A stretch of 64,000 nt of DNA from Bacteroidota bacterium. Its GTDB lineage: Bacteria > Bacteroidota > Bacteroidia > Cytophagales > Cyclobacteriaceae. Below are positions 2,529 through 15,721 of the stretch, piece by piece. Made by a program: the position numbers and the translations under genes. The notes beneath the pieces were generated by a model. It saw only the letters and a program-made list of their open reading frames with translations. It searched no databases and was not told the origin of the DNA. Each line of letters begins with the position of its first letter. Within the stretch, counting starts at the first letter, position 1. The DNA lies in the NCBI GenBank assembly GCA_016178785.1, contig JACOSO010000023.1, positions 1 to 64,000 of the forward strand, given 5' to 3'.

Positions 2529-3512
2529 GTGGAATCATCGCGAATAGCTCTACCCATCGGAACGGCCTTGGACCGGTTTATCAAGAACAATCAGGAACAA
2601 TTTCAGTATGCCAGTGGTGAGCTGTCGCAATTACTGCGAGACATAGCGTTGGCCTCGAAAGTGGTGAACCGCGAGGTGAACAAGGCGGGCTTGATCGACA
2701 TCATGGGCGCGATGGGAACACAAAACACAGCGGGTGATCAACAGCAGAAGCTAGATGTGCTTGCCAATATTCGCTTTACACGGGCTTTGACCAAGGGTGG
2801 TGAGGCGTGCGCGGTAATCTCTGAAGAATCAGAAACTTATGTTGATTTAAATAATGATGGAAAATATGTGATCGCCATCGATCCATTGGATGGGTCATCC
2901 AACATCGATGTGAATGTTTCGATCGGAACAATCTTTTCCATTTACAGAAGAAAATCTCCGATTGGAAAGTCGATCAGCGAAGCCGACATCTTGCAAAAAG
3001 GCGAGGAGCAGGTAGCTGCAGGATATATCTTGTACGGATCATCAACGATGCTGGTGTTTACAACAGGTTTTGGAGTCAACGGATTTACTTACGAGCCATC
3101 GCTGGGTGAGTATGTGCTTTCGCACCCACACATGGAAATGCCGAAGGACGGAAAAATTTATTCAATCAATGAGGGCTCGGCAAATTCGTTTTCAGACCCG
3201 GTGAAGAAATACATTCAATATTGCAAAGACAATAATTATACTGCACGGTACATTGGTTCGCTCGTGGCAGATTTCCACAGGAATTTATTGAAAGGTGGAA
3301 TTTACATTTATCCTGCAACGGCAAAAGACCCCAAAGGTAAATTGAGACTGATGTACGAGTGTAACGCACTTGCTTTCATTGCAGAGCAAGCAGGAGGTAG
3401 AGGCACTGATGGCAAGGGAAGAATTTTGGAAATTCAGCCCACAGCTTTGCATCAACGCACACCTTTTTATGTTGGCTCGGAAAGTATGGTAACGAAAGCA
3501 GAGAGTTTTTAA
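2529..3512 (+). CDS. fbp: Fructose-1,6-bisphosphatase, class I
   Basis: Converts fructose-1,6-bisphosphate to fructose-6-phosphate in gluconeogenesis. The metal-binding signature DPLDGSSN is at residues 118-125, and the N-terminal helix region (ATG-like [16 protein letters not shown], then [10 protein letters not shown]) is typical of class I enzymes. The C-terminal substrate region includes [10 protein letters not shown]. At 327 residues the length is normal. The start is GTG. No ATG exists in frame between the upstream stop and the conserved N-terminal helix, so GTG is the best choice. The 3' end overlaps the converging DUF5606 gene by four bases. Confidence 0.96.
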
Positions 3513-3922
3513 GATTGCAACTCAGTGGGCTTCAAAATTTCCGGGGCTTCTTTCGAGATAATCCCATACCACCTGATCAGCTTCTTGATATCTGAAACGT
3601 AAACGCGCTCCACGTCAAATTCGGGAAGAACAGATTTCATGAAGGCCTGCAATTCATTTGCATCGGATTCGCTGTCGAGACCTAAGTCATTGCCAAACTG
3701 CGCATTTATCTTTTGAAGTACTTCAACCAGCGGAACCGTTCCTTCTTTAGTGGTAGTGTAAATAGAAATTTCATTTAGCACTGAAATCCGATGAGTAGCA
3801 CCAGCTACAATTTTTGTCTTGGCAGCATCGATTGACTCAAGGACGACTCCTGCTTTCCCCGGTTTTAGTATTTTGTACAAACCGCTTTTTCCGCTTACCG
3901 ATGCAATTTCCGAAATCTCCAT
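3509..3922 (-). CDS. DUF5606 family protein
   Basis: A cytosolic protein of 137 residues from the chosen start. It begins [19 protein letters not shown], the recognisable N-terminus of the DUF5606 family found in Bacteroidota. An upstream ATG at 4003 would add 27 residues that do not look family-like, so the internal ATG at 3922 is preferred. No catalytic motif is visible, and the family has no established function. It converges with fbp (4-bp overlap). Confidence 0.75.
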
Positions 3923-4150
3923 TCTTAAAAAATTTAGTGGCGCAATATTAGCGAATTCTATCATTCGATAGGGCTTTTTTGAAATCAGGTTTTTGATTTC
4001 CATTTTTAAATAAATTTTTGTTCGCTGAAATATGAACCTTGGTCATTTCAAGCCGAAATGCTACAATATCATTCCTCTATATTTTTAGACCCATAATAGG
4101 ACTTTAATTTATATAAAATATATTGCGCAAGCTCTTATAAAATCGAAAAA

Positions 4151-6901
4151 ATGAGACTTTTTCCTTATACCTTAATTAGATTAGGCGGTGACTCTTTCAA
4201 TAAAATAGAAATCTTAGAATCACAAAAAACATTGGGAGTTGTTAAGAAATTTATAAATGAAAGGGCTAATCTCCATATAGAAAAATTAAAGTTGTGCGAA
4301 TTGTTATTCGAGTATATTAAAATTTCAGATAATCGTAAGACTCAAAATATTTTACAGAATTTTAGAAGAGACCTATTTAATGAAAGAACGATAACGCTTG
4401 ATAGGTTAGAAGAAATTACACCACTCTTGCATAGCGAACTTAGATCGGTTTTAACCTCATATTTGGATTCTTATGCCCAAAAGAATCAGAGATTTGAGGA
4501 AATCTCTAGAATTTTTAAAAATGAAATTTCCGAGGAAAGATGTTCTTTGCAAAAGATTTCAAATAGTTCTGTGTTGAAGAAAGGGCTTTTGCTGTCAAGC
4601 AAGACATTCCTTGATGCGCTCACTATCTATCAAAAGAATTTGCCAAATTCTTTTGGTAAAAAAGAAGAACAAATTGAGCTTACACTTCTGAAGTACGTGG
4701 CGAGGATTCATGCCAAGACTTCACCCTTTAGTACCTTTACTAACCTTTCAATAGGTAGGCTTGCTGATTTAGATAAGGTTTTTTTTAAGCTTTCAGATAA
4801 AAATTATTTTGGCGAAAAAGTAAAGAGTCATATCCGATTAAATAATGTTCTATTGAAACTTTTATTAAAGGTCTTCAGAAGAGAAAAAAGCATTTACCTT
4901 AATACTTACTTAAAATTAAATCCCACGGTTAGCTCAAACTCGCTTTCTTATAGATTCTTAATTAACAAGGATAATATTGAGTCTTTCCAAGAGATTAAAA
5001 CAAATTCAGTTGTTCAGTTGGTTTATTCAAAATTAATTTCTTTGAAAGGCGGCATTCGGTTTAAGGACCTTATAACAGATTGTCTAAACCATATTGAGGG
5101 TGATTTTAATAAAATAGAAGAGTATATATATAAACTAATCAAATTGGGTTTTATAGAATTCCAATTTAATACATCTGCCATGGACTCTGATTGGGATAAA
5201 GCCCTAATTAGAAATTTATTAGAAATAAAAGATGATGCGCCAATAGTGTCAGAAATTATTGACGTATTGACTGAGTTAGAAAAGTCGGCAATTGATTATG
5301 GAAATGCAAGCGTTATTGATAGGGAAGAAATTTTAAAAAAAGCATATTTAGAATTTAGCGACTTGTATTTAAAGTTGCATAAATCAGCGGGGCTTCCTGA
5401 AAGTGAAAGGTTACTTCACGAAAGTATAGATTCTGTAGTTAAGCAAAAGCAAGAAATTATTAAAAAGAAACAAGGTCTTCCTGAAAACAAAATATTTGAG
5501 GATGCTGAATCAACGGAAATGAACATAACTCTCGAACAACTGTTTTATGAAGATACAACAAGATTCGTAGATGCTGAATGCGACACAAAAAGTGTAACTG
5601 AATTAGTCAAATTAGTTAATTCTCTTCAGGAGGAGCTAGGAATTTTCGCGTTGCATGAAGATGAAAAAGATAGGATGAGGGATTTTTTCATTCGGACATA
5701 CGGTCAGGATGGAAGTATTAGCCTTCTAAATTTCTACGAAGATTTTTCACGAGAAGATTTGGCAAACAAGGATTTAGTGAACAAGAATGGGGATGTACCA
5801 AGGATAAATGAAAGATCGATCAGGAAGAAAAATTGGCGAAAAAAAGTAGCAGAATACATTAGCCATGAGTTAAATATTAATGAAATAAATATCAACCTTG
5901 ATGTGCTTAGGAAAATTAACTCCGAAGTAGGGACCAAAAAGGATAATAACTCTTCAAATTCCTATGGCTGTTTTTTGCAAATGTTCACAACAGATGAAGG
6001 TAAATTATCTGCAGTAATAAATGCAACTTTTGCTGGTTACGGGAAATTGGCAAGTAGGTTTTTGCATCTATTTGATAAAACTGTATTAGAAGAGACTAGA
6101 AAGTATAACAATGACCTGAAGGCTGACAACGAAATTTTTGTTGAAAATTGCGATGCTTCAATTAATAATGCAAATATGCATCCTGCATTAATGCCATACG
6201 AAATATGGATGCCTGGAAGTCAAAATAATGGAAGTTTTCAGGATCGTTTATCAATTACAGAGTTTAGTTTGAGTTTGGTCGATGATGAGCTAGTCCTTAA
6301 ACATGTACCATCTGATAAACTAGCTTATTTTTTTGATTTGGGATTTCAAGGGACTGGAAGGTCAAAGCTTTTTCAAATGTTGGATTTTTTCTCAAAAGCG
6401 AAAATTGTGTCTTATTCACCGCTTGTAGAGATAATTAATTCAGAAGTAGAGAATACTTTTTTTCGTGAGAGAGAAAAAAAAATAGTAGTATATCCTCGAA
6501 TAACATTCGAGGTAAATTTAGTTTTGCAAAGGAAAACTTGGGCTATTCCTAAAGAATTAATCCCAATAAAATTGCAAAATGAAAACCCGTTAGAATACTT
6601 TATTAAAATCACTGATTGGAGAATCAAGAATTTAATTCCGGAGGAAATCTATGTATATCTATATGTGCCTTCGCAAATGAAATCAGTAGACCCTTCTTTG
6701 CTAAGAAGGATAACTCGAGACGACTATAAGCCACAATATATAAATTTTAAAAGCCTGTTGTACGTTAGTCTGTTTGAGAAAATTATGAAGAAGGCAGCTC
6801 CTACTATTAAAATTCAAGAGATGTACCCTACTTCATCCCATCTCATAAATATTGATATGGATAAGTATTTCATGGAGTTTTTGGTACAATGGTATACTTA
6901 A
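4151..6901 (+). CDS. Lantibiotic dehydratase, N-terminal (glutamylation) part: LanB1
   Basis: A 916-residue protein with the layout of the class I lanthipeptide dehydratase N-terminal domain, which uses glutamyl-tRNA to glutamylate Ser/Thr of a precursor peptide. The family motif is visible as ARIHAKTSPFSTFTNLSIG around residues 184-202, with a typical C-terminal half ending EFLVQWYT. The elimination domain is missing here and is encoded by the next gene, which overlaps by 13 bases, so the dehydratase is split. Base composition is very AT-rich (17 G+C in the 60 bases 4261-4320, against 27 of 60 in fbp at 2581-2640). This suggests acquired DNA. First gene of a four-gene operon. Confidence 0.88.
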   Translation: MRLFPYTLIRLGGDSFNKIEILESQKTLGVVKKFINERANLHIEKLKLCELLFEYIKISDNRKTQNILQNFRRDLFNERTITLDRLEEITPLLHSELRSVLTSYLDSYAQKNQRFEEISRIFKNEISEERCSLQKISNSSVLKKGLLLSSKTFLDALTIYQKNLPNSFGKKEEQIELTLLKYVARIHAKTSPFSTFTNLSIGRLADLDKVFFKLSDKNYFGEKVKSHIRLNNVLLKLLLKVFRREKSIYLNTYLKLNPTVSSNSLSYRFLINKDNIESFQEIKTNSVVQLVYSKLISLKGGIRFKDLITDCLNHIEGDFNKIEEYIYKLIKLGFIEFQFNTSAMDSDWDKALIRNLLEIKDDAPIVSEIIDVLTELEKSAIDYGNASVIDREEILKKAYLEFSDLYLKLHKSAGLPESERLLHESIDSVVKQKQEIIKKKQGLPENKIFEDAESTEMNITLEQLFYEDTTRFVDAECDTKSVTELVKLVNSLQEELGIFALHEDEKDRMRDFFIRTYGQDGSISLLNFYEDFSREDLANKDLVNKNGDVPRINERSIRKKNWRKKVAEYISHELNINEININLDVLRKINSEVGTKKDNNSSNSYGCFLQMFTTDEGKLSAVINATFAGYGKLASRFLHLFDKTVLEETRKYNNDLKADNEIFVENCDASINNANMHPALMPYEIWMPGSQNNGSFQDRLSITEFSLSLVDDELVLKHVPSDKLAYFFDLGFQGTGRSKLFQMLDFFSKAKIVSYSPLVEIINSEVENTFFREREKKIVVYPRITFEVNLVLQRKTWAIPKELIPIKLQNENPLEYFIKITDWRIKNLIPEEIYVYLYVPSQMKSVDPSLLRRITRDDYKPQYINFKSLLYVSLFEKIMKKAAPTIKIQEMYPTSSHLINIDMDKYFMEFLVQWYT

Positions 6902-7914
6902 AAAAAAATAGAATGAAGTCCGTTAGATCAATTAAAGATGGGGGCGATTGGATGTCCGCTTACCTCTATTATAACGAACCATGGGATATGTTTTTGCTAA
7001 GTGCTGTGCTCCCTATTGTAGAACAATACAACTCGTTGAATCTTATTAATAGGTTTTTCTTTATTCGATACTGGGAAAGAGGTCCCCACATCCGCCTTAG
7101 GCTGAAACTAACCGGTAGGTTAAATAGAGAAAAAATTAAGTCTAATTTGATTGAGCACTTTACTGGATACTATAATTCGAATCCGTCAATTAGAAATGAG
7201 CGGCCAGTTCAATCCGATTGGAGGTTGAATAATTCAATTTATTTTATTGATTATGAACCTGAGTATGAGCGTTATGGGGGGTCATTTGGATTAGAGAAGT
7301 CTGAGGAACAATTTGAATTGTCATCCAAAACGATTCTTAAAATATTCGAAGACAACCACGAAATTGAATATAAAAGAAAGATTGGGTTAGCGCTTAAGAT
7401 TCATATCGCATTTGCATTTGCAATTGGGCTTACACTGAATGAAGTAACCTATTTATTTGAAAAATTATTTGAGGATGGGCTTCCGAATATATTATATCCA
7501 GGCGTGGTTAATATTAATGATCCTGAATTTAAAAAAGCAAAATCAAATTTAGTGGAGGAAATTCACAAGTTATATGAAATTCAAGAAAATCAACTCCAGG
7601 TTCTTTTTGAAACAATGTGGGGGCATCTTTCTGTCTCAGGAAAATTTGAACAAGAATGGATTGATTTGTGGGTGGATGGGACTATAAAAATTGACTCGGA
7701 AATTGAAAAAGGAATAGGTAGAATTCAAATTCCTGCTTGGTATTTAAAATTATACGAATCCCATGTTTCTCATCTCAGCCATAAAAAATGGTACCTATAT
7801 AGGGCTTATATACATATGACGAATAATCGGTTGGGGATAGCCAATAGGGATGAACCATATTTGGCATATATCATATTTCAAAGTGCCCAAAAATTGCTTA
7901 AAAAATATATATAA
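6889..7914 (+). CDS. Lantibiotic dehydratase C-terminal (glutamate elimination) domain protein: LanB2
   Basis: A 341-residue stand-alone version of the SpaB_C/thiopeptide-type bacteriocin biosynthesis domain. It should remove glutamate from glutamylated Ser/Thr to give dehydroalanine and dehydrobutyrine. The N-terminus has the typical WMSAYLYYNEPWDMFLLSAV opening, followed by FFIRYWERGPHIRLRLK, the conserved RxGPHIRLR-like strand. It overlaps lanB1 by 13 bases, so the pair is probably co-translated and acts as one split LanB. A second ATG at 6913 is an alternative start. Nine bases separate it from lanC. Confidence 0.87.
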   Translation: MVYLKKNRMKSVRSIKDGGDWMSAYLYYNEPWDMFLLSAVLPIVEQYNSLNLINRFFFIRYWERGPHIRLRLKLTGRLNREKIKSNLIEHFTGYYNSNPSIRNERPVQSDWRLNNSIYFIDYEPEYERYGGSFGLEKSEEQFELSSKTILKIFEDNHEIEYKRKIGLALKIHIAFAFAIGLTLNEVTYLFEKLFEDGLPNILYPGVVNINDPEFKKAKSNLVEEIHKLYEIQENQLQVLFETMWGHLSVSGKFEQEWIDLWVDGTIKIDSEIEKGIGRIQIPAWYLKLYESHVSHLSHKKWYLYRAYIHMTNNRLGIANRDEPYLAYIIFQSAQKLLKKYI

Positions 7915-7923
7915 TACCCTTAT

Positions 7924-9915
7924 ATGGTGCCAAATATTTTAAAAGAGGCAATAAGAATTGGAGATGATCTTTTATGTGATTTAAAAGAGGATGAACATGG
8001 GCTATATTCTGAGACTGTTCAAGAGGGTGGACAATCTTATGGCAAATCTGAAAATATTTACTTGGGTGTTTCAGGCATCGTTTTATTTCTAATTGAATTA
8101 TATAAGCATACAAAACAAGAACGTTATCTTAGTGCTATTACCAATCTAAGTCGTTGGGTAACCAACTATTCTAAATCAAACACCACATACAATTATTCAT
8201 TCCTGACTGGACGACTTGGGGTTTCTTATACTTTATTGCAAGTTTTTGACTTAACCAAAAAAAATGAATATTTAAGAGACGCTTTGGAGTTGTCTCGCAA
8301 TTGTGAACAATTCATAAACGCTTACAATGATAAGAAAGTAAACGATTTTCTAGTTGGTATTTCTGGGTCGATTATCCCCCTAATGCACTTGTACATTGCT
8401 TCGAAAGAGATTTGGCTAATAGAAAAGATTAATCTTTATGTAGCTGCTCTTCTCGATCGCATCCATTTTGGTGCTATTGGTTTTTATTGGGATAAAGACA
8501 GGAAGAACACAAAACCCTTATGCGGATTTTCTCATGGAGTATCAGGAATCGGTTACGTATTTTTAGAACTAGGATATTTTTTTCAAAATCCAACATTTTA
8601 TTGGATATCTGATCAAGCCTTTAAGTATGAATCATATTATTATGATAGCTCAAAGAAAAATTGGCCAGATTTTAGGAAAGGTTACTCTGATTCTCGTTTT
8701 GAGAATAACAAACAATTGATGCAGGAAGTAGGTAAGCAGAAATTTAATGAGGCAAACTACATGACCGCATGGTGTCATGGTGCCCCTGGAATAGGGTTAA
8801 CTAGATTAAGGGCATATGAATTAACTAATGACAATTCGTACCTCACTGATTTGCACTTAGCTCTGGAATGCACAAAAGAGGATTTGAGAAATGGCGAAAA
8901 TAATACATACACACTATGTCATGGCTTAGGGGGCAACGCCAATCTATTTATTGAAGCAAATAGAGTTTTAGTAGATAGTGACCTTTTGGTGATTAGTAGA
9001 CAAATTGCCCTTGATGCAATAAAATGTAAACAAACTGTTAATAAATATTATTCTGGTTATTCTAAAATTGACATTGAGGATACAAGCTTATTCATGGGAG
9101 ATGCTGGCATAGGTTATTACTATATTCAAGTTACCGACCCCGAGGGTACTCCGTCCATATTGATGCCAAGGCTTAAAGAAAGATCCGGAGTAAATTTATC
9201 ATTCCAAAACTATTCATCTGAATTCGCGATCAGCATAAGTGAGCTAAAGAAAAGACTATTTATGAAACTTTTCCCAAGAACTTTAGCTCTTATCAAATGT
9301 TATTCTGAAGATCTTTATGAAAATAGTTTTTTTAAAGAGAATAAAATTTGTATCACTAATGATCCATTTATTAAATGTTGCAAATTGCATCTTGAGCAAA
9401 TTATTTTACTTGTTCCTCAAGAATCTATGCGACTGCAATTATATGACATTTGGGAATTGGAGAGTAAGATAGTAGAAGCAGACTCCTCAATTGTAAGTTA
9501 TTATGCGTTAGAATTACAGAATTCGATTAATGCCGATAAGGAAAAATTAATTGTTGGATCTCTTCTTGAGTCTTATTCCGAATCAATTTTGAAATTAAGG
9601 GATGACATTTTAATAGTAAAAAATTTTTGGAAATGGCCATTGAGCTCCTCTGATATTGCAATTCAAACTGAAGATAGAGGGGGATTTTATACAGCAATAG
9701 TTCCTGAAGTCAAATCCACAAAAGAATACAGACTTACGCACTTTAGTTATTTAATATTATCCTCTTTTCTAGAGGAACGAAGCATTTCAAAAATGCTCTC
9801 ATTGTTAAGAGGAAATTTTGAATTAAGCGATTTGAAAGATGAGTTTGCGTTCAGGGAAAAAGTGGAAATGCAGTTGAGGTTAGCAATCCAAAATCATTTT
9901 CTTGTCATCATTTGA
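7924..9915 (+). CDS. LanC-type lanthionine cyclase with a long C-terminal extension
   Basis: The first ~420 residues form a LanC cyclase, which adds Cys thiols to dehydrated residues to make (methyl)lanthionine rings. Zinc ligands are C284 (WCHG motif) and C332-H333 (LCHG motif). The expected general acid/base is H204 in GFSHGVSGIG, and the last repeat is FMGDAGIGYYYI. LanC proteins usually end near residue 420, but this one continues for about 240 residues. The extension is mostly helical in appearance and ends in a short segment (about 605-663) that could be a winged helix. No family was recognised for it. Fourth-gene overlap: its TGA overlaps the possible TTG start of the DinB-like gene. 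Confidence 0.87.
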   Translation: MVPNILKEAIRIGDDLLCDLKEDEHGLYSETVQEGGQSYGKSENIYLGVSGIVLFLIELYKHTKQERYLSAITNLSRWVTNYSKSNTTYNYSFLTGRLGVSYTLLQVFDLTKKNEYLRDALELSRNCEQFINAYNDKKVNDFLVGISGSIIPLMHLYIASKEIWLIEKINLYVAALLDRIHFGAIGFYWDKDRKNTKPLCGFSHGVSGIGYVFLELGYFFQNPTFYWISDQAFKYESYYYDSSKKNWPDFRKGYSDSRFENNKQLMQEVGKQKFNEANYMTAWCHGAPGIGLTRLRAYELTNDNSYLTDLHLALECTKEDLRNGENNTYTLCHGLGGNANLFIEANRVLVDSDLLVISRQIALDAIKCKQTVNKYYSGYSKIDIEDTSLFMGDAGIGYYYIQVTDPEGTPSILMPRLKERSGVNLSFQNYSSEFAISISELKKRLFMKLFPRTLALIKCYSEDLYENSFFKENKICITNDPFIKCCKLHLEQIILLVPQESMRLQLYDIWELESKIVEADSSIVSYYALELQNSINADKEKLIVGSLLESYSESILKLRDDILIVKNFWKWPLSSSDIAIQTEDRGGFYTAIVPEVKSTKEYRLTHFSYLILSSFLEERSISKMLSLLRGNFELSDLKDEFAFREKVEMQLRLAIQNHFLVII

Positions 9916-9926
9916 AAAATCTTTTA

Positions 9927-10439
9927 ATGACTCAGGATTTAATTATCAAGCCTCTTGCAAACTATACTCCGCAAATTGGCAATTTGGTCTCCATGATGCA
10001 ATTGGTACGTACCCATTCCCTTAATATAATTGGAAACCTTGGTGTCAATCAACTTGATCGTTTGTATGATAATAAGAGTAATTCTATTGGTGCCTTGCTA
10101 ATGCATAATGCGGCATTGGAGGCTGCCCATCAGGCTTGGCTTTTTGAAGATAGGGACTTAACAAGACAAGAGCTAGAATATTGGTATGGATTCTTACCCG
10201 GTCAACTTGGAAAGCTAAGAATAACCGATCATAAATCAGGCTATTATATTCAAATTTTAAATGAGGTTAGAAGTAAAACATTGGATTATCTAATGAAGAA
10301 GACTGACGAATGGCTATATTTTGAGAAAATCCATAGTGGCAAAATAAAGTGCAATAACTTTTACTTATTATTTCATTTGATTGAAGACGAGATAAATCAT
10401 AGGGGGCAAATATTATGGATGTTAAAAAGATTCGTTTAA
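9927..10439 (+). CDS. DinB-like four-helix protein in the lanthipeptide operon
   Basis: A DinB/YfiT-superfamily protein. The three histidines of the metal site are in place (counting from the upstream TTG at 9912): H65 in LLMHNAALE, then H155 and H163 in FHLIEDEINHRGQI. The superfamily includes metal-dependent thiol transferases and many proteins of unknown role. The ATG at 9927 is chosen. A TTG at 9912 overlapping the lanC stop is possible and would add five residues. Its position as last gene of the lanB1-lanB2-lanC operon suggests a role in modification, redox or self-protection, but this is inference. Confidence 0.75.
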   Translation: MTQDLIIKPLANYTPQIGNLVSMMQLVRTHSLNIIGNLGVNQLDRLYDNKSNSIGALLMHNAALEAAHQAWLFEDRDLTRQELEYWYGFLPGQLGKLRITDHKSGYYIQILNEVRSKTLDYLMKKTDEWLYFEKIHSGKIKCNNFYLLFHLIEDEINHRGQILWMLKRFV

Positions 10440-10532
10440 GAATAAAATAAATAATACTACGGGACAAGGTGAAAACCTGGTCGATGAAAGTACAGATATC
10501 CTTCAATATTTTCGAATGGACTGATAGTTGGC

Positions 10533-10733
10533 TTATGGAACTGGTTGGCACCAAACGCTACTACAATAATGATCTGAAGTACTGCAGGCTGTACATGTAG
10601 CGCTTCCTGTACAGGTGCAGGGCGCACATGTTCCAGCTGTTGCGCCACCCTTTACATTAGCATCCTGATTATTCACAGTAGTTACGAAACTTTGAACTTC
10701 AAGCTCCTCCAAAGTTAATTTTTTGTTTTCCAT
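10533..10733 (-). CDS. Class I lanthipeptide precursor, pinensin-like (LanA)
   Basis: A 66-residue peptide. The leader (1-30) carries the Bacteroidota lanthipeptide leader pattern LTLEELEVQSFVT and ends in VKGG, a double-glycine site for a C39 peptidase. The 36-residue core has seven Cys (36, 39, 41, 47, 50, 57, 62), about a dozen Ser/Thr and one Trp. This is ideal for multiple lanthionine rings. The leader resembles that of the pinensin family from Chitinophaga. The ATG at 10733 is chosen because a longer reading (to 10787) adds residues unlike any leader. It is the last gene of the exporter operon, 55 bp after hlyD, and converges with the modification operon. Confidence 0.88.
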   Translation of the reverse strand: MENKKLTLEELEVQSFVTTVNNQDANVKGGATAGTCAPCTCTGSATCTACSTSDHYCSSVWCQPVP

Positions 10734-10788
10734 AATTTTCGGGGATTTAGTTATGATAAATATAAAGCTTCCAACAATACTTTGCAAA

Positions 10789-12081
10789 TCAATAGATATT
10801 ATCTGTGTTACTTCTAAATTTATTGATGACCCTCTCGATAAGTCTATAGTCCTTTGTTATTATTTCTGCCTCACCTTTCATTTCTTGCTTAAATTCAAGC
10901 GTCCGATTGTTACTAGTTGCTAACTTATTGGGTAAATCTAAAATGATAGTGTATAAGCCATCTGAAGGCACTAATGAAATAGATTTTATTTTTCCTATTA
11001 CCATTCCAAATTCAGTGAAGGGATAGTTATCAAATCGTAAATTAACTCTCTGACCAATTCTGACTTTTCCAGATCCTAGGATAGGCATTTTTATTATACC
11101 AAAGATGTTATTGGTTTCAGGAATAATACTTAGAACATTATCACCTTTTTTTATATATTGGTTGTTACTCCAGAATTCTCCGAGTGAAACTTTACCTTTG
11201 ATTGGTGCCTCGAGAAGAAAAAGTTGTTTCCACTCAGCTAATTTGCTTTTCAGATTTTTGTGTGCCTCCTGAAAAACTAGCTCAAGATTCGAGGACACAG
11301 TGATTTGTTCAATTTTTAGACTTTCAATTTGGTCCAATAATTCTAGTTTTAAAACTGAATTCTGTGAGGAGTTAATTATTGCCTGTTGATAGGCTAATTT
11401 TATTTCAAGATAGTTTGCATAGGATAGATCAAAATCAATTTCCGAAATAACTTTCTCATGAAACAACTTTGAGTCAATTTGAAATTTCCTCTCATAAACG
11501 TGCAGCTTCTCTGCTAACGTTTTTATTCGACTTTTAAACTGACTTTGCAATGTGTCAGATAGTTTAATTCGGTATTCCAGCTGGTCAATCTTTTTCTTAT
11601 GTTTATTTAAATGCTTGAAATGAAGAAGTTCCTTTACGGACTTGTAGAAGTTACTGTATGCTTCTTGAATAGTTCCTAAGTTTAGATTATGATAAAGTGG
11701 ACTTAACTTACTGTTCTCGGATTCGGTGATAAGAGAATCGGAAGAGAACTTTAGTTTAGCTATTAAGAACAAAGCATCCTCAACAGAAGCTGAGTTTTCA
11801 ATATACCCTAATATGTCGCCCTCGTTTATTGATTGATTATTTTTCGTTAGAAAAAAAACCTTCCCTTCTGAGCGTGCAACTATTCGAGTTGGTGGCACTT
11901 CTGTGGTTATCACTACCTGTGCGGGAATCTTATCGGGATATTTTATAAAGAAGGAAAGACCAATCAAAAGGAAAACAGTTGTGAATAGCGCAGTACTACC
12001 CCATCGGATAAACCATGAAGGATCGCTATTTATTAAATCAACTAATTCCTCTCGTTCATCAAATCGCCTGAAATATTTCAT
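10789..12081 (-). CDS. HlyD-family membrane fusion protein
   Basis: A 430-residue periplasmic adaptor for the peptide exporter. One N-terminal transmembrane helix (about residues 29-50) is followed by a first lipoyl-like half (ARSEGKVFFLTKNNQSINEGD), a long helical coiled-coil hairpin (about 90-290) and the second half (APIKGKVSLGEFWSNNQYIKKGD). It lies two bases after the ABC exporter stop and 55 bp before the precursor gene, so the three are one operon. It should connect the inner-membrane exporter to an outer-membrane TolC-like channel. No such channel is encoded in the island. Confidence 0.88.
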   Translation of the reverse strand: MKYFRRFDEREELVDLINSDPSWFIRWGSTALFTTVFLLIGLSFFIKYPDKIPAQVVITTEVPPTRIVARSEGKVFFLTKNNQSINEGDILGYIENSASVEDALFLIAKLKFSSDSLITESENSKLSPLYHNLNLGTIQEAYSNFYKSVKELLHFKHLNKHKKKIDQLEYRIKLSDTLQSQFKSRIKTLAEKLHVYERKFQIDSKLFHEKVISEIDFDLSYANYLEIKLAYQQAIINSSQNSVLKLELLDQIESLKIEQITVSSNLELVFQEAHKNLKSKLAEWKQLFLLEAPIKGKVSLGEFWSNNQYIKKGDNVLSIIPETNNIFGIIKMPILGSGKVRIGQRVNLRFDNYPFTEFGMVIGKIKSISLVPSDGLYTIILDLPNKLATSNNRTLEFKQEMKGEAEIITKDYRLIERVINKFRSNTDNIY

Positions 12082-12083
12082 AA

Positions 12084-14261
12084 TTAAATGCCAAGCTCAA
12101 GCTGATTTTGAACTAGGTTAAAATAATTGCCTCTATTTTTGATTAAATTTTGGTGAGTTCCAATCTCGACTATCTTACCATTCTCTAAAACTATAATTTG
12201 GTCAGCCGATGCGACAGTACTTAAACGATGTGCCACAATAACAACAGTTTTTCCTTCGTAAAAAGGTTTTAACTTATGAATAATAACACTTTCATTCTTA
12301 GCATCCAGTGCATTTGTAGCCTCATCAAAAAACAAGTAATCAGGATCTTTATAGATTGCTCTTGCGATAAGAATTCGTTGTCTTTGACCTTGGCTCAATT
12401 CAGTGCCGTCTGCACCCAGTTTTGTATCAAACCCGAGATGTGAGCTATTAACAAAGTCCTTTACATTTGATATTTCAATGGCACTACTTAGTTTTAGAAT
12501 ATCAATTATTTCCTCACCAAGTGCAATATTTTTTGCTATACTGTCTGAGAAAATATATCCATCCTGAAGAACAGCACCACATTTATCTCTCCATGTTCTC
12601 CCGTTTATTAAATTTAAGTTGATCTGACCAATACTTAGATCTCCATTTGTCGGTTTATATAACTTGAGTAGGATTTTCAATAAGGTTGTTTTGCCGCTTC
12701 CGCTAGCTCCAACAATAGCGGTGATTTTATTTTCTGGGATAATCAAATTTATATTCTTAAGGACAAAATTTTCGCATGATGGATATTTAAAACTTATATT
12801 TTCAAGTGTAATAGTTTTGTTTTGTGGTGGAACATCGGTTTTATTTCTTATTAGTTCCTCTTCTTCCTTGCTAAAAATTTCTTCAAACCTTTCAAAACTT
12901 ATTTTTGCATCCTGTGCACTATGTATAAATCCTACTGCTTGGCTAATTGGAGAGTTCATTTGACCAATTATGTATTGAATCGATAACATCATTCCAAGAG
13001 TAATTTCTCCATTAATTACGGATTGAGCAGAAACAAATGTTGCAAGGATATTTTTTAATTCGTTGATAAGGAACGCTCCTCCTTGTTGGTATTGATTCAA
13101 GGTCAGATTCTTAATGTTAGTTCTGAAAATTTTTCTCTGTACTTTTTCCCAATTATCTCTTTTTTCCGCTTCAGCGTTATATATTTTTATATCTTTCATT
13201 CCGTTGATTATCTCAAAAAAACTCCCTTGAGTTGAACTCGTTTCTGAAAAAAGTTTGTTGTTAAGCTCTCTTCTTTTTTTCATGAATAAGAGTACCCAAA
13301 TAAGATAAAGGGCGCTTCCTATAAAAAAGATGCAAAATATCTTTAGGTTATAGTACAGTAGTACAATTCCAAATACTATTAAGTTAATAAGTGAGAATAG
13401 AATGTTAATAGACGATGTGGTTAAAAAGGCTTCAATTTTTCTATAGTCACCAAGTCGAACCATTAAATCCCCAATTAATTTATTATCAAAGAAGCTTTGA
13501 GGAAGTTTCATTAATTTAGAGAGAAAGTCGGACATAAGAGAAATGCCAATTTTGTTGCCAATGTGGAGCAAAATCCAATTCCTTATAAAATCCACGGTTA
13601 CCCTGCTAAAGAAGAGAATTAATTGGGCAATTAATATAATATTGATGAATGTTAGATTTTCTTGATTGATCCCAATATCCACTAATGATTGAGTCAAAAA
13701 TGGAAAGATCAACTGCAGCAAGCTTCCCACAATCATCCCGATAAGCAGTTGAAGAAAATACCTTTTATGAGGATTGAGGTATTGAAAGAGAATCCTAGTG
13801 TCTCGAATTTTCTCGGAGTCATCATTGCTATCATAAAAATTCGAAGTAGGTTCTAAAAAAAGAACTAAACCTGAATCTTCCTCACTTTCCATTGTCCAAC
13901 CTGAACGAAACTCGTCTGAATTGTATTTAATTAAACCATGGGCTGGATCTGAGACATACACATTATTATTGCTGATCTTATAGACAACAATGAAGTGATT
14001 TTTGCGCCAAAACGCAATCATGGGTAATGGGACATTCTTTAATTTATCAAAAGGAATTTTTGCAGATAATGTCTTAAGACCAATGGATTCTGCTGCATCT
14101 TTTAATCCCAATAGACTCACACCTCCTCTGTTTTGTGAGCTTCTGATTCTTAAAAATTCTAGTGAATATACTTTGCCATAGTACTTTGCAATTGCCTTTA
14201 GACAAGCTGGTCCGCAATCCATTGAGTCAAGCTGCCTATAAAATGGGAAACCTCTCATCAA
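12084..14261 (-). CDS. Peptidase-containing ABC exporter (C39 peptidase, LanT-type)
   Basis: A 725-residue fusion of three parts. An N-terminal C39 bacteriocin-processing peptidase has catalytic C16 (MDCGPAC), H89 (KNHFIVV) and D105 (SDPAHG). A six-helix ABC membrane domain spans about 165-440. The ATPase has Walker A GASGSGKTTLL, signature LSQGQRQR, Walker B YLFFDEAT and the switch His in VAHRLST. It should cut the precursor after VKGG while exporting it. All catalytic residues are present. It is the first gene of the reverse operon (exporter, hlyD, lanA). Either of two adjacent ATGs (14261 or 14258) could be the start. Confidence 0.93.
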   Translation of the reverse strand: MMRGFPFYRQLDSMDCGPACLKAIAKYYGKVYSLEFLRIRSSQNRGGVSLLGLKDAAESIGLKTLSAKIPFDKLKNVPLPMIAFWRKNHFIVVYKISNNNVYVSDPAHGLIKYNSDEFRSGWTMESEEDSGLVLFLEPTSNFYDSNDDSEKIRDTRILFQYLNPHKRYFLQLLIGMIVGSLLQLIFPFLTQSLVDIGINQENLTFINIILIAQLILFFSRVTVDFIRNWILLHIGNKIGISLMSDFLSKLMKLPQSFFDNKLIGDLMVRLGDYRKIEAFLTTSSINILFSLINLIVFGIVLLYYNLKIFCIFFIGSALYLIWVLLFMKKRRELNNKLFSETSSTQGSFFEIINGMKDIKIYNAEAEKRDNWEKVQRKIFRTNIKNLTLNQYQQGGAFLINELKNILATFVSAQSVINGEITLGMMLSIQYIIGQMNSPISQAVGFIHSAQDAKISFERFEEIFSKEEEELIRNKTDVPPQNKTITLENISFKYPSCENFVLKNINLIIPENKITAIVGASGSGKTTLLKILLKLYKPTNGDLSIGQINLNLINGRTWRDKCGAVLQDGYIFSDSIAKNIALGEEIIDILKLSSAIEISNVKDFVNSSHLGFDTKLGADGTELSQGQRQRILIARAIYKDPDYLFFDEATNALDAKNESVIIHKLKPFYEGKTVVIVAHRLSTVASADQIIVLENGKIVEIGTHQNLIKNRGNYFNLVQNQLELGI

Positions 14262-14404
14262 GATGAGATATTTAGGTTACAAATTATTATAGTTTTACAG
14301 CTTAACACTGTGTATCTAAATATTTAAAGAGCAGTATTAATTTTCAAAGATCAATTTTTTCTTGAGTATCTTCAAATTGCATTGCCTTATGACTTCATGA
14401 AGAT

Positions 14405-15721
14405 TTATTCCTTCTCCCGTTCAGTAACTTTAGAAAAATTCATCACAAAATAGATCATACTTAAAATCGCGACAAAAATAGCCAAGCCTATCACTTCCTT
14501 AGCCGACAGATTAGAGAGAAACCAAAGGATGGTGATAATGGCAATTATTGGAACTGTGTAACCTCCCGCAATTTTGAATGCGGCCTCGTCTTTTTCTTTT
14601 TTCATTCTGAATTTAATTACCGCAAGCGCAACGCCCATGTAAATCAGCAATGCAGATGAGGATGCAAAGATGGCAAGCTGCCTGAATTCGCCCGTGATCG
14701 AAAAGAAACAAGTCAGAATAGCATATACAATAATTGAAATGTAGGGTGTCGAATATTTTGAATGAACACTCGAGAGTTGCTTTATCGGAATCACCTGATC
14801 TTTTGCTGATCGAAACAGTACCCGGGGCATGTTCATACTATCGCTACTAAGGTATCCAGCCATTGAAATGGCGGCACCTGCAATCATCATGGTAACACCA
14901 ATAGGCCCGAATAATTGCCTGGCAACTTCTGCCAATGGTGAGGCTTTGAAATTTGAAAACGAGTCCCCTAAAATTCCTTGTGCCACTAATTGAATGGAGA
15001 TATAAAAAATAAGAATGATTGAAAAACTCAGGAAGATAGCTTGCGGCACAGTTCGCTTCGGGTTCTTCACTTCGCCACTGATGCTTAGACTTCCTTCGGC
15101 ACCTTGAAATGCAAAGAAAAGAATAAGCGAAATCTTGCCGAGGTCTGATAATTCGGGTACACCCTTCCATGCAAGATTGGATGTCGCAACTTTTGTAATA
15201 CCAAATAGAATCAAAAGCAGGAGAGGGGTGAGCTTCGCTATAGTGGTAATCTTCACCAGAGTAATTCCTTTTTTCACTCCGATGACGTTTATAATAACAA
15301 GCAATGAGAAAATCGAAATAAGGAAAAAGGCCTTAGCAAATGAGCCTTCAAATAAGGGGATAAATGTGGCCAATGTGTTAACCAATGCATTAGCTACAGC
15401 CGATGCTGCCATCAGCGAAGAGCCAAATACAAATATGTTAGTGGTAAGAAACCCGAAATAATTTCCAAAAGCTTGTTCAATATAAGCGTAAGCGCCACCG
15501 GTCACGGTAACTCTGCTTCCCACCTCGGCAAAACAAAGCATGATCATGGTGATGAGAAATCCGCAGAATAGATAGGCGAGAATTCCAGCTGCTCCTAGTT
15601 TCTCACTTACGATAGCGGGCAAGACGAAAATTCCCGAGCCGATTACTATATTGACAATATTTGAGGTCAGTCCCCACAAGCCAATCTCGCGCTTGAGGCC
15701 TTCTTCGCTACTCTTCTCCAT
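14405..15721 (-). CDS. APC-superfamily amino acid permease
   Basis: A 438-residue membrane protein with about 12 hydrophobic helices. TM1 has the APC signature NIVIGSGIFVLPA, and GGAYAYIEQAFG follows in the TM3 region. The family exchanges or imports amino acids with protons or other amino acids. The substrate cannot be told from sequence. Its start overlaps the end of engB by 14 bases, so the two are co-transcribed. It marks the right flank of the AT-rich lanthipeptide island and has ordinary base composition. Confidence 0.88.
   Translation of the reverse strand: MEKSSEEGLKREIGLWGLTSNIVNIVIGSGIFVLPAIVSEKLGAAGILAYLFCGFLITMIMLCFAEVGSRVTVTGGAYAYIEQAFGNYFGFLTTNIFVFGSSLMAASAVANALVNTLATFIPLFEGSFAKAFFLISIFSLLVIINVIGVKKGITLVKITTIAKLTPLLLLILFGITKVATSNLAWKGVPELSDLGKISLILFFAFQGAEGSLSISGEVKNPKRTVPQAIFLSFSIILIFYISIQLVAQGILGDSFSNFKASPLAEVARQLFGPIGVTMMIAGAAISMAGYLSSDSMNMPRVLFRSAKDQVIPIKQLSSVHSKYSTPYISIIVYAILTCFFSITGEFRQLAIFASSSALLIYMGVALAVIKFRMKKEKDEAAFKIAGGYTVPIIAIITILWFLSNLSAKEVIGLAIFVAILSMIYFVMNFSKVTEREKE

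Follow-up and report, generated by a model that had tools for sequence, protein, structure and literature searches.

The window analysed here, 64,000 nucleotides from a Bacteroidota bacterium (positions 1 to 64,000 of contig JACOSO010000023.1, assembly GCA_016178785.1), contains all the parts of a class I lanthipeptide cluster between positions 4151 and 14261, as judged from its open reading frames and their profile matches. Seven genes are present, with all seven reading frames intact: lanB1, lanB2, lanC and a DinB-type gene lie on the plus strand and converge with a minus-strand group encoding an exporter, a HlyD-type protein and the LanA precursor. An initial annotation made from the letters alone had described a complete cluster with a split dehydratase, a LanC with three zinc ligands, a C39 ABC exporter with a Cys-His-Asp triad, a HlyD adaptor and two convergent operons, and all of these are borne out by the frames, strands and profiles given below.

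Gene content, relatives and acquisition of the island

The lanB1 gene (4151..6901, plus strand) encodes a 916 amino acid protein corresponding to the glutamylation half of a split class I dehydratase (PF04738, E 5.8e-17), with the lantibiotic dehydratase domain protein 6ec7 as a match in the PDB (E 1.6e-10). It overlaps by 13 bp with lanB2 (6889..7914, plus strand), whose 341 amino acid product is the elimination half (PF14028, E 9.9e-37, profile positions 1-252 of 255). Next on the same strand comes lanC (7924..9915), encoding a zinc cyclase of 663 amino acids with a C-terminal extension. The cyclase domain spans residues 43-413 (PF05147, E 6.8e-53) and resembles that of LanM enzymes: the best NCBIfam match is the LanM model TIGR03897, below the cut-off of that model, and the best PDB match is LicM2. 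The zinc ligands C284, C332 and H333 are retained in 51 of 55 aligned LanC rows, the window's included, and are invariant in a smaller alignment (A2) of the window's protein with eight relatives, four of twelve relatives having been left out.

On the minus strand, a 725 amino acid C39-peptidase ABC exporter (12084..14261; PF03412, E 3.2e-35, with PF00664 and PF00005) has in its C39 domain the residues Cys16, His89 and Asp105, read off the sequence, which we take to be the catalytic triad. The exporter frame opens TTG-ATG, so the ATG at 14258 may be the start. Its neighbour encodes a HlyD-type membrane fusion protein of 430 amino acids (10789..12081, minus strand; PF13437, 29.8 bits against a cut-off of 22.2), which matches TIGR01843 with an E-value of 1.2e-18, below the TIGR01843 cut-off.

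The precursor gene lanA (10533..10733, minus strand) encodes 66 amino acids, divided into a 30-residue leader, LTLEELEVQSFVT..VKGG (10644-10733), and a 36-residue core (10536-10643) with seven Cys and 12 Ser/Thr, much as first described. The likeness of the leader to those of pinensins, also remarked on at that stage, was confirmed by the NCBI curated model NF038180 (leader_pinensin; 41 bits against a cut-off of 24, E 1.3e-10), and no other match to this family occurs in the 4.47-Mb genome. Together with the presence of the same enzyme set in relatives, this match supports assignment of the cluster to the pinensin family. Outside its own genome, the precursor had no match at E 0.001 in the 391 other genomes of the phylum searched (1/392), nor did 72,556 plasmid records yield one at E 0.01. 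The nearest cores, among 50 precursor rows, are those of two precursors from Pedobacter sp. KBW06, with Smith-Waterman scores of 74 and 62 that were each reached by 0/300 shuffles, uncorrected for the 50 comparisons. That the product may be new, as had been proposed, is thus consistent with a core that appears new among these genomes and plasmid records, and the LanA peptide is probably a new member of the pinensin family.

A search of the order for LanC relatives at E 0.001 gave matches in 30 of 391 genomes, the genome itself and weak matches included. The 30 best LanC relatives, taken from a scan of named genomes in which the best 80 of 449 were kept, come from Bacteroidota and from MAGs labelled Acidobacteria, Aminicenantes, KSB1, Ignavibacteria, Kapaibacterium and Phycisphaerae. 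Forty-one loci (L034-L074), some present twice via two collections, were annotated. The 50 precursor rows come from an iterated leader profile, which found them in 27 of these loci, often several to a locus, alike in leader and varied in core. An exporter (at least 250 bits) and LanB1 occur together in 18 distinct loci among the 41, and they are on opposite strands in one of these 18, that of Dyadobacter koreensis (L073); the opposed-strand layout is uncommon, not unique.

Two observations on these relatives deserve mention in their own right. Zinc ligands are lost in four of the 55 LanC rows, representing three distinct sequences (L042, L044, which is identical to L081, and L078); these are tailed LanC homologues that have AYA or ATN at the positions of C, C and H, and they may be non-catalytic. 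In an Ignavibacteria MAG (L061, JAQTLX010000003.1), three minus-strand precursors with pinensin-type leaders (12149-12913, 12963-13733 and 13783-14508) each carry, between a Cys-rich core and a second Cys-containing tail, a Hint/intein-like domain (PF07591; two were scanned, with E 9.8e-21 and 7.7e-17). Such an arrangement would join a lanthipeptide precursor to a domain that may splice or cleave itself, and no title describing such a natural fusion was found among the literature matches listed.

The cluster sits in a low-GC inserted island (33% against 41%; 3951..14428, ends approximate, no strand assigned). GC content is about 32-35% across 4001-14000 against 40-42% in the 4 kb adjoining each side. 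In one congener (G031) the flanking genes are adjacent, the matched flanks, which in the window end at 3922 and resume at 14429, being 65 bp apart, an empty site; in another (G005) about 2.3 kb separates the matched flanks. Because of this empty site, and since the leader_pinensin model has no match in the 35 congeners searched, the simplest reading is that the cluster was gained by this lineage, through horizontal acquisition. Comparison of 250-bp stretches at the two ends of the island revealed no direct or inverted repeats of at least 10 bp, and tRNA and Rfam scans of the window gave no matches. A strict sigma-70 consensus, which is not informative for this phylum, is absent from the window.

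The C-terminal extension of LanC

The initial annotation had overlooked the 250 residues (414-663) by which LanC extends past the end of the cyclase profile at residue 413. To judge from an AlphaFold model of the tail and its Foldseek matches, the extension comprises a mainly helical part (residues 414-549; 9163..9570, plus strand) and a C-terminal RRE-like domain (residues 550-663; 9571..9912, plus strand). We surveyed the window's protein together with the 54 LanC open reading frames from loci L034-L124 whose score against it exceeds 150 bits, setting aside 39 weaker LanC hits. Of these 55 rows, 47 (42 distinct sequences; 46 of the 54 relatives) continue for at least 200 residues beyond residue 413; six shorter LanCs lack such a tail, and two rows are cut by contig ends. 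The tail therefore marks this LanC group and not all LanCs.

AlphaFold, run on 32 aligned LanC tails, returned a model with pLDDT 86.9 and pTM 0.82. The best PDB matches of the whole tail in Foldseek are TglI of TglHI (8hi7, E 7.5e-4; 8hci, 4.7e-3) and NGO1945 (3dee, 7.5e-3), two proteins that we take to consist of a helical domain and an RRE-like domain. Superpositions over the full length are poor (rmsd 8-12 A). The match ranked fourth is an unrelated chain (probability 0.06), and PqqD and the lasso protein TbiB1 come next. Folded alone, the last 114 residues of LanC gave a model of pLDDT 88 with predicted strands followed by helices at 57-64, 72-80 and 88-107, an order that agrees, at the level of prediction, with the winged fold of an RRE. 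The nine best Foldseek matches of this terminal half are TglI (two entries), a lasso B1 protein, the LanB MadB, TbiB1 (two chains), TigE, PqqD and the LanB MibB, with probabilities of 0.80-0.99 and E-values of 0.038-0.44, none below 0.001. All nine are RiPP proteins that we take to be RRE-bearing. From rank 10 onwards, among the best 50 of 328 matches, the proteins are unrelated save for a third TbiB1 chain at rank 24.

Sequence comparisons gave fainter signals. For the tail of the window's LanC there is no Pfam match. Among the 32 tails, two match PqqD (best E 0.0048) and one NGO1945_C (0.004), and 24 other Pfam families are also matched, some at like E-values (for example PAH, 0.0045). When the tail profile was searched against PDB sequences, unrelated chains took the first two ranks and a PqqD-family chaperone (E 0.96) came next. 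When a profile of the terminal half was run on 130 stop-to-stop open reading frames from seven loci holding a PqqD gene, six PqqD frames ranked 1, 2, 3, 5, 8 and 12, and the frame containing the seventh PqqD gene ranked sixth. The best of these scored 18.2 bits, against at most 8.7 for the same six in 50 column-shuffled controls and 4.1 with a profile of the helical half; the ranking is a limited control, because most of the 130 frames are probably not genes and the contrast is therefore not one with unrelated winged-helix proteins. Leaving the window's LanC aside, the terminal-half profile matches 44 of the 46 tailed LanCs; many of these belong to its training set, and outside that set it matches eight of ten distinct LanCs, missing L042 and L043. 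Apart from LanC, the loci searched contain one protein that this profile matches, a DUF6734 protein of 497 residues encoded beside and downstream of lanB2 (L040:18487-19980, E 1.8e-7), itself a possible further leader-guided enzyme. Nothing in LanB1 or LanB2 passed inclusion with the LanC-tail profile, a result with which an RRE of another sequence in those proteins is still compatible.

Taking the models as a guide, the terminal half of the tail is most likely an RRE. Since we take its top PDB matches to be RRE-bearing, the cyclase itself probably binds the leader. LanC thus seems to carry a built-in peptide-recognition module, one that we have not found described for such enzymes: the available text of PMC12710340, PMC7470986, PMC11002830 and PMC10352776, and the other open literature that we searched, yielded no statement of an RRE on LanC. 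According to the parts of these sources that were accessible, RREs occur with 1,158 Pfam domains, among which LanC could be included (PMC12710340), class I LanBs carry RREs (PMC7470986) and TglI is termed a substrate-binding protein (PMC11002830).

A DinB-type gene beside lanC

The seventh gene of the island, also overlooked at first, encodes a DinB-superfamily protein of 175 amino acids counted from a TTG, with an ATG a few codons in as a possible start (9912..10439, plus strand; PF05163, 30.2 bits against a cut-off of 23). The gene shares 4 bp with the end of lanC, and its product resembles the solved protein 2ou6 (E 3e-16). The score of the protein with the mycothiol S-transferase (MST) family PF04978 is 20.3 bits, below the cut-off of 27, which is passed by its relatives in G074, G130 and the KSB1 MAG and failed by that in G726. 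The initial statement that the island holds neither a regulator nor an immunity gene stands in its first part, profile searches with Pfam and NCBIfam revealing no regulator among the seven genes; the second part is not settled, because this reading frame had been missed.

DinB metalloenzymes presumably use a triad of three His residues to bind metal. In the window's protein and in nine of 32 relatives, Asp replaces the His four residues before HxGQ, and 2ou6 likewise has Asp. The idea that this replacement marks RiPP-linked DinB proteins was rejected, as unlinked relatives have Asp and the G130 protein does not.

A search of the order gave 19 other DinB matches (20 of 192 genomes, the genome itself included) and a search of the phylum at E 1e-20 gave 25 (23 of 392 genomes, likewise), two of them shared with the order search. 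Of the resulting 42 distinct places, 31 neighbourhoods of up to 20 kb, some cut by contig ends, were examined: 19 were queried with the window's proteins, and 12 with those of G074 and G130 added. RiPP genes lie near DinB in three of the 31, and none was detected in the other 28. In G074 the neighbours are a C39 exporter, a HlyD protein, a carbamoyltransferase, a C39/2OG-oxygenase protein and a GG peptide (TIGR04149, 22.6 against a cut-off of 25); in G130, LanB and LanC; and in G726, LanC, LanB, a LanB C-terminal protein and a precursor-like frame (class I model, 19 against a cut-off of 22). Approached from the other side, DinB is found in one of 91 LanC-bearing loci (L034-L124) and is therefore not a core gene. 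In that locus, which belongs to the KSB1 MAG (L049), a pinensin-type precursor precedes DinB on its own strand and a carbamoyltransferase is near. In G074, G726 and L049 the gene beside DinB encodes a precursor or resembles one that does, and in the window DinB lies about 100 bp from lanA, in convergent orientation.

With roughly one LanC per 37 Mb (about nine genes in 98 other genomes of the phylum, with rounded genome sizes), about 0.02 LanC neighbours would be expected in the 31 DinB places against two seen, a rough estimate that ignores families richer in LanC. On a tree of the DinB proteins, the RiPP-linked label is more clustered than in most shuffles (11/500 as low); a single origin of the linked genes is unsupported, the tree needing three changes and its branches being long. 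Because its relatives stand beside RiPP precursors in three other clusters, we regard the DinB-type protein as a candidate tailoring or self-protection protein. No description of DinB in RiPP clusters was found in the open literature that we searched.

The neighbourhoods themselves hold further points of interest. The carbamoyltransferases (PF02543, PF16861) at L049 14955-16625 and L138 6265-8073 hint at possible carbamoylated RiPPs. L138 (G074:C8:16000-35000) contains at 2641-10179 a RiPP-like cluster with the GG peptide, DinB, the C39/2OG-oxygenase protein, the carbamoyltransferase, the C39 exporter and HlyD, in which LanB or LanC was not detected. In L137 (G130:C84) the DinB domain belongs to a 315-residue frame (10926-11873) with an unassigned N-terminal part, on the LanB/LanC strand.

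Proposed mechanism and comparison with known systems

We consider it highly probable that this is an acquired island for one pinensin-family class I lanthipeptide, made and exported as follows. The 30-residue LanA leader would be bound by the RRE that structure prediction places at the C-terminus of LanC, joining cyclase and substrate. Judging from their families, LanB1 would glutamylate core Ser/Thr from Glu-tRNA and LanB2 would eliminate the glutamate to leave Dha/Dhb, to which the LanC zinc site would add up to seven Cys thiols. The C39 exporter would then cut after GG and send the peptide out via HlyD and an outer-membrane channel whose gene lies elsewhere. Produced along with LanC, the DinB-type protein would be a rare accessory, serving either to tailor the dehydrated peptide or to protect the producer. 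A bolder version is put forward tentatively, at less than even confidence. In it, LanC would serve as a leader-recognition hub, with a fused TglI-like helical-plus-RRE tail, and the DinB-type protein would be an accessory enzyme that recurs alongside precursors in lanthipeptide clusters and others related to them, where it would use a small thiol to act on dehydrated residues or confer self-protection.

An island that is decayed or silent, with its genes present and no lanthipeptide made, would fit its acquired state and differing base composition, the lack of a regulator among its genes and the failure of the leader model to match in any of the 35 congeners searched. We think this improbable, as all seven frames, the zinc ligands and the GG leader are intact; decay of LanC would moreover be visible, because three distinct relative sequences do show lost zinc ligands (4/55 rows). 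It is also unlikely, if less remotely so, that the tail of LanC is a winged-helix domain with a structural or protein-docking role and no part in leader binding, which would reside in LanB1 as in nisin. The weak RRE matches in Pfam and PDB profile searches would agree with this, as would the RREs of class I LanBs (PMC7470986, in its accessible part) and the presence of MadB and MibB among the fold matches. Against it, all nine leading fold matches are RiPP proteins that we take to be RRE-bearing, the domain recurs in the DUF6734 protein beside lanB2 in L040, as expected of a portable recognition module, and the LanC-tail profile passed inclusion in no LanB, where an RRE of another sequence would be compatible.

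That the DinB-type gene is an unrelated passenger strikes us as rather doubtful. Its occurrence in one of 91 LanC-bearing loci speaks for a passenger, as do the 28 of 31 other DinB places where no RiPP gene was detected, but the frame overlaps lanC, three of 31 relatives lie by RiPP genes (two by LanC, against the roughly estimated 0.02), and DinB adjoins a precursor-like gene in G726, G074 and the KSB1 MAG. On our preferred reading, that of a working acquired cluster, the island is a compact seven-gene system with an apparently new core. An RRE on the cyclase, if real, would account for the use of a single leader by both a split LanB and a LanM-like cyclase, and it would open the exchange of leaders between family members to testing. 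The DinB-type genes next to precursors suggest an accessory function of which we found no description in the open literature.

Much of this has precedent. In the available text of Walker et al. (PMC7268733), split LanBs of the pinensin kind are described, Bacteroidetes class I leaders end in GG and go with C39 proteases that are often in the cluster, and Bacteroidetes LanCs lie close to LanM cyclases and have precursors in a family that includes pinensin; pinensins, which are antifungal, were in 2020 the sole lanthipeptides isolated from Bacteroidetes. Pinensin-like clusters with varied cores have also been reported (PMC10112250, PMC9248904, as far as accessible). The cluster type and the variety of cores are therefore already known. 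The pinensin cluster of Chitinophaga pinensis (BGC0001392), known to us by description, shares with the island a pinensin-type leader, a split LanB (pinB1/pinB2) and a LanM-like LanC (PMC7268733, PMC10112250). The core of pinensin A has 22 residues (PMC10112250) against 36 in the island, which sets the island's core apart from that of pinensin itself. The island differs further in having the exporter and precursor on the opposite strand and a DinB-type gene, and none of its seven genes is of the perception or import kind described, in the accessible text, for Cpin5321-5324 of the pinensin cluster.

Among the relatives, Pedobacter sp. KBW06 (L069), which has the closest core, shares LanB1, LanB2, a tailed LanC and a C39 exporter with the island. 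It differs in having two precursors of 105-108 residues with longer cores, and its locus has no HlyD or DinB match. Dyadobacter koreensis resembles the island in having LanB and LanC on one strand and the precursor, HlyD and exporter on the other, but there other genes interrupt both sides. For the LanC tail as a whole, the closest folds are TglI and NGO1945-type MNIO partner proteins; these are separate proteins, whereas in the island the tail is fused to LanC.
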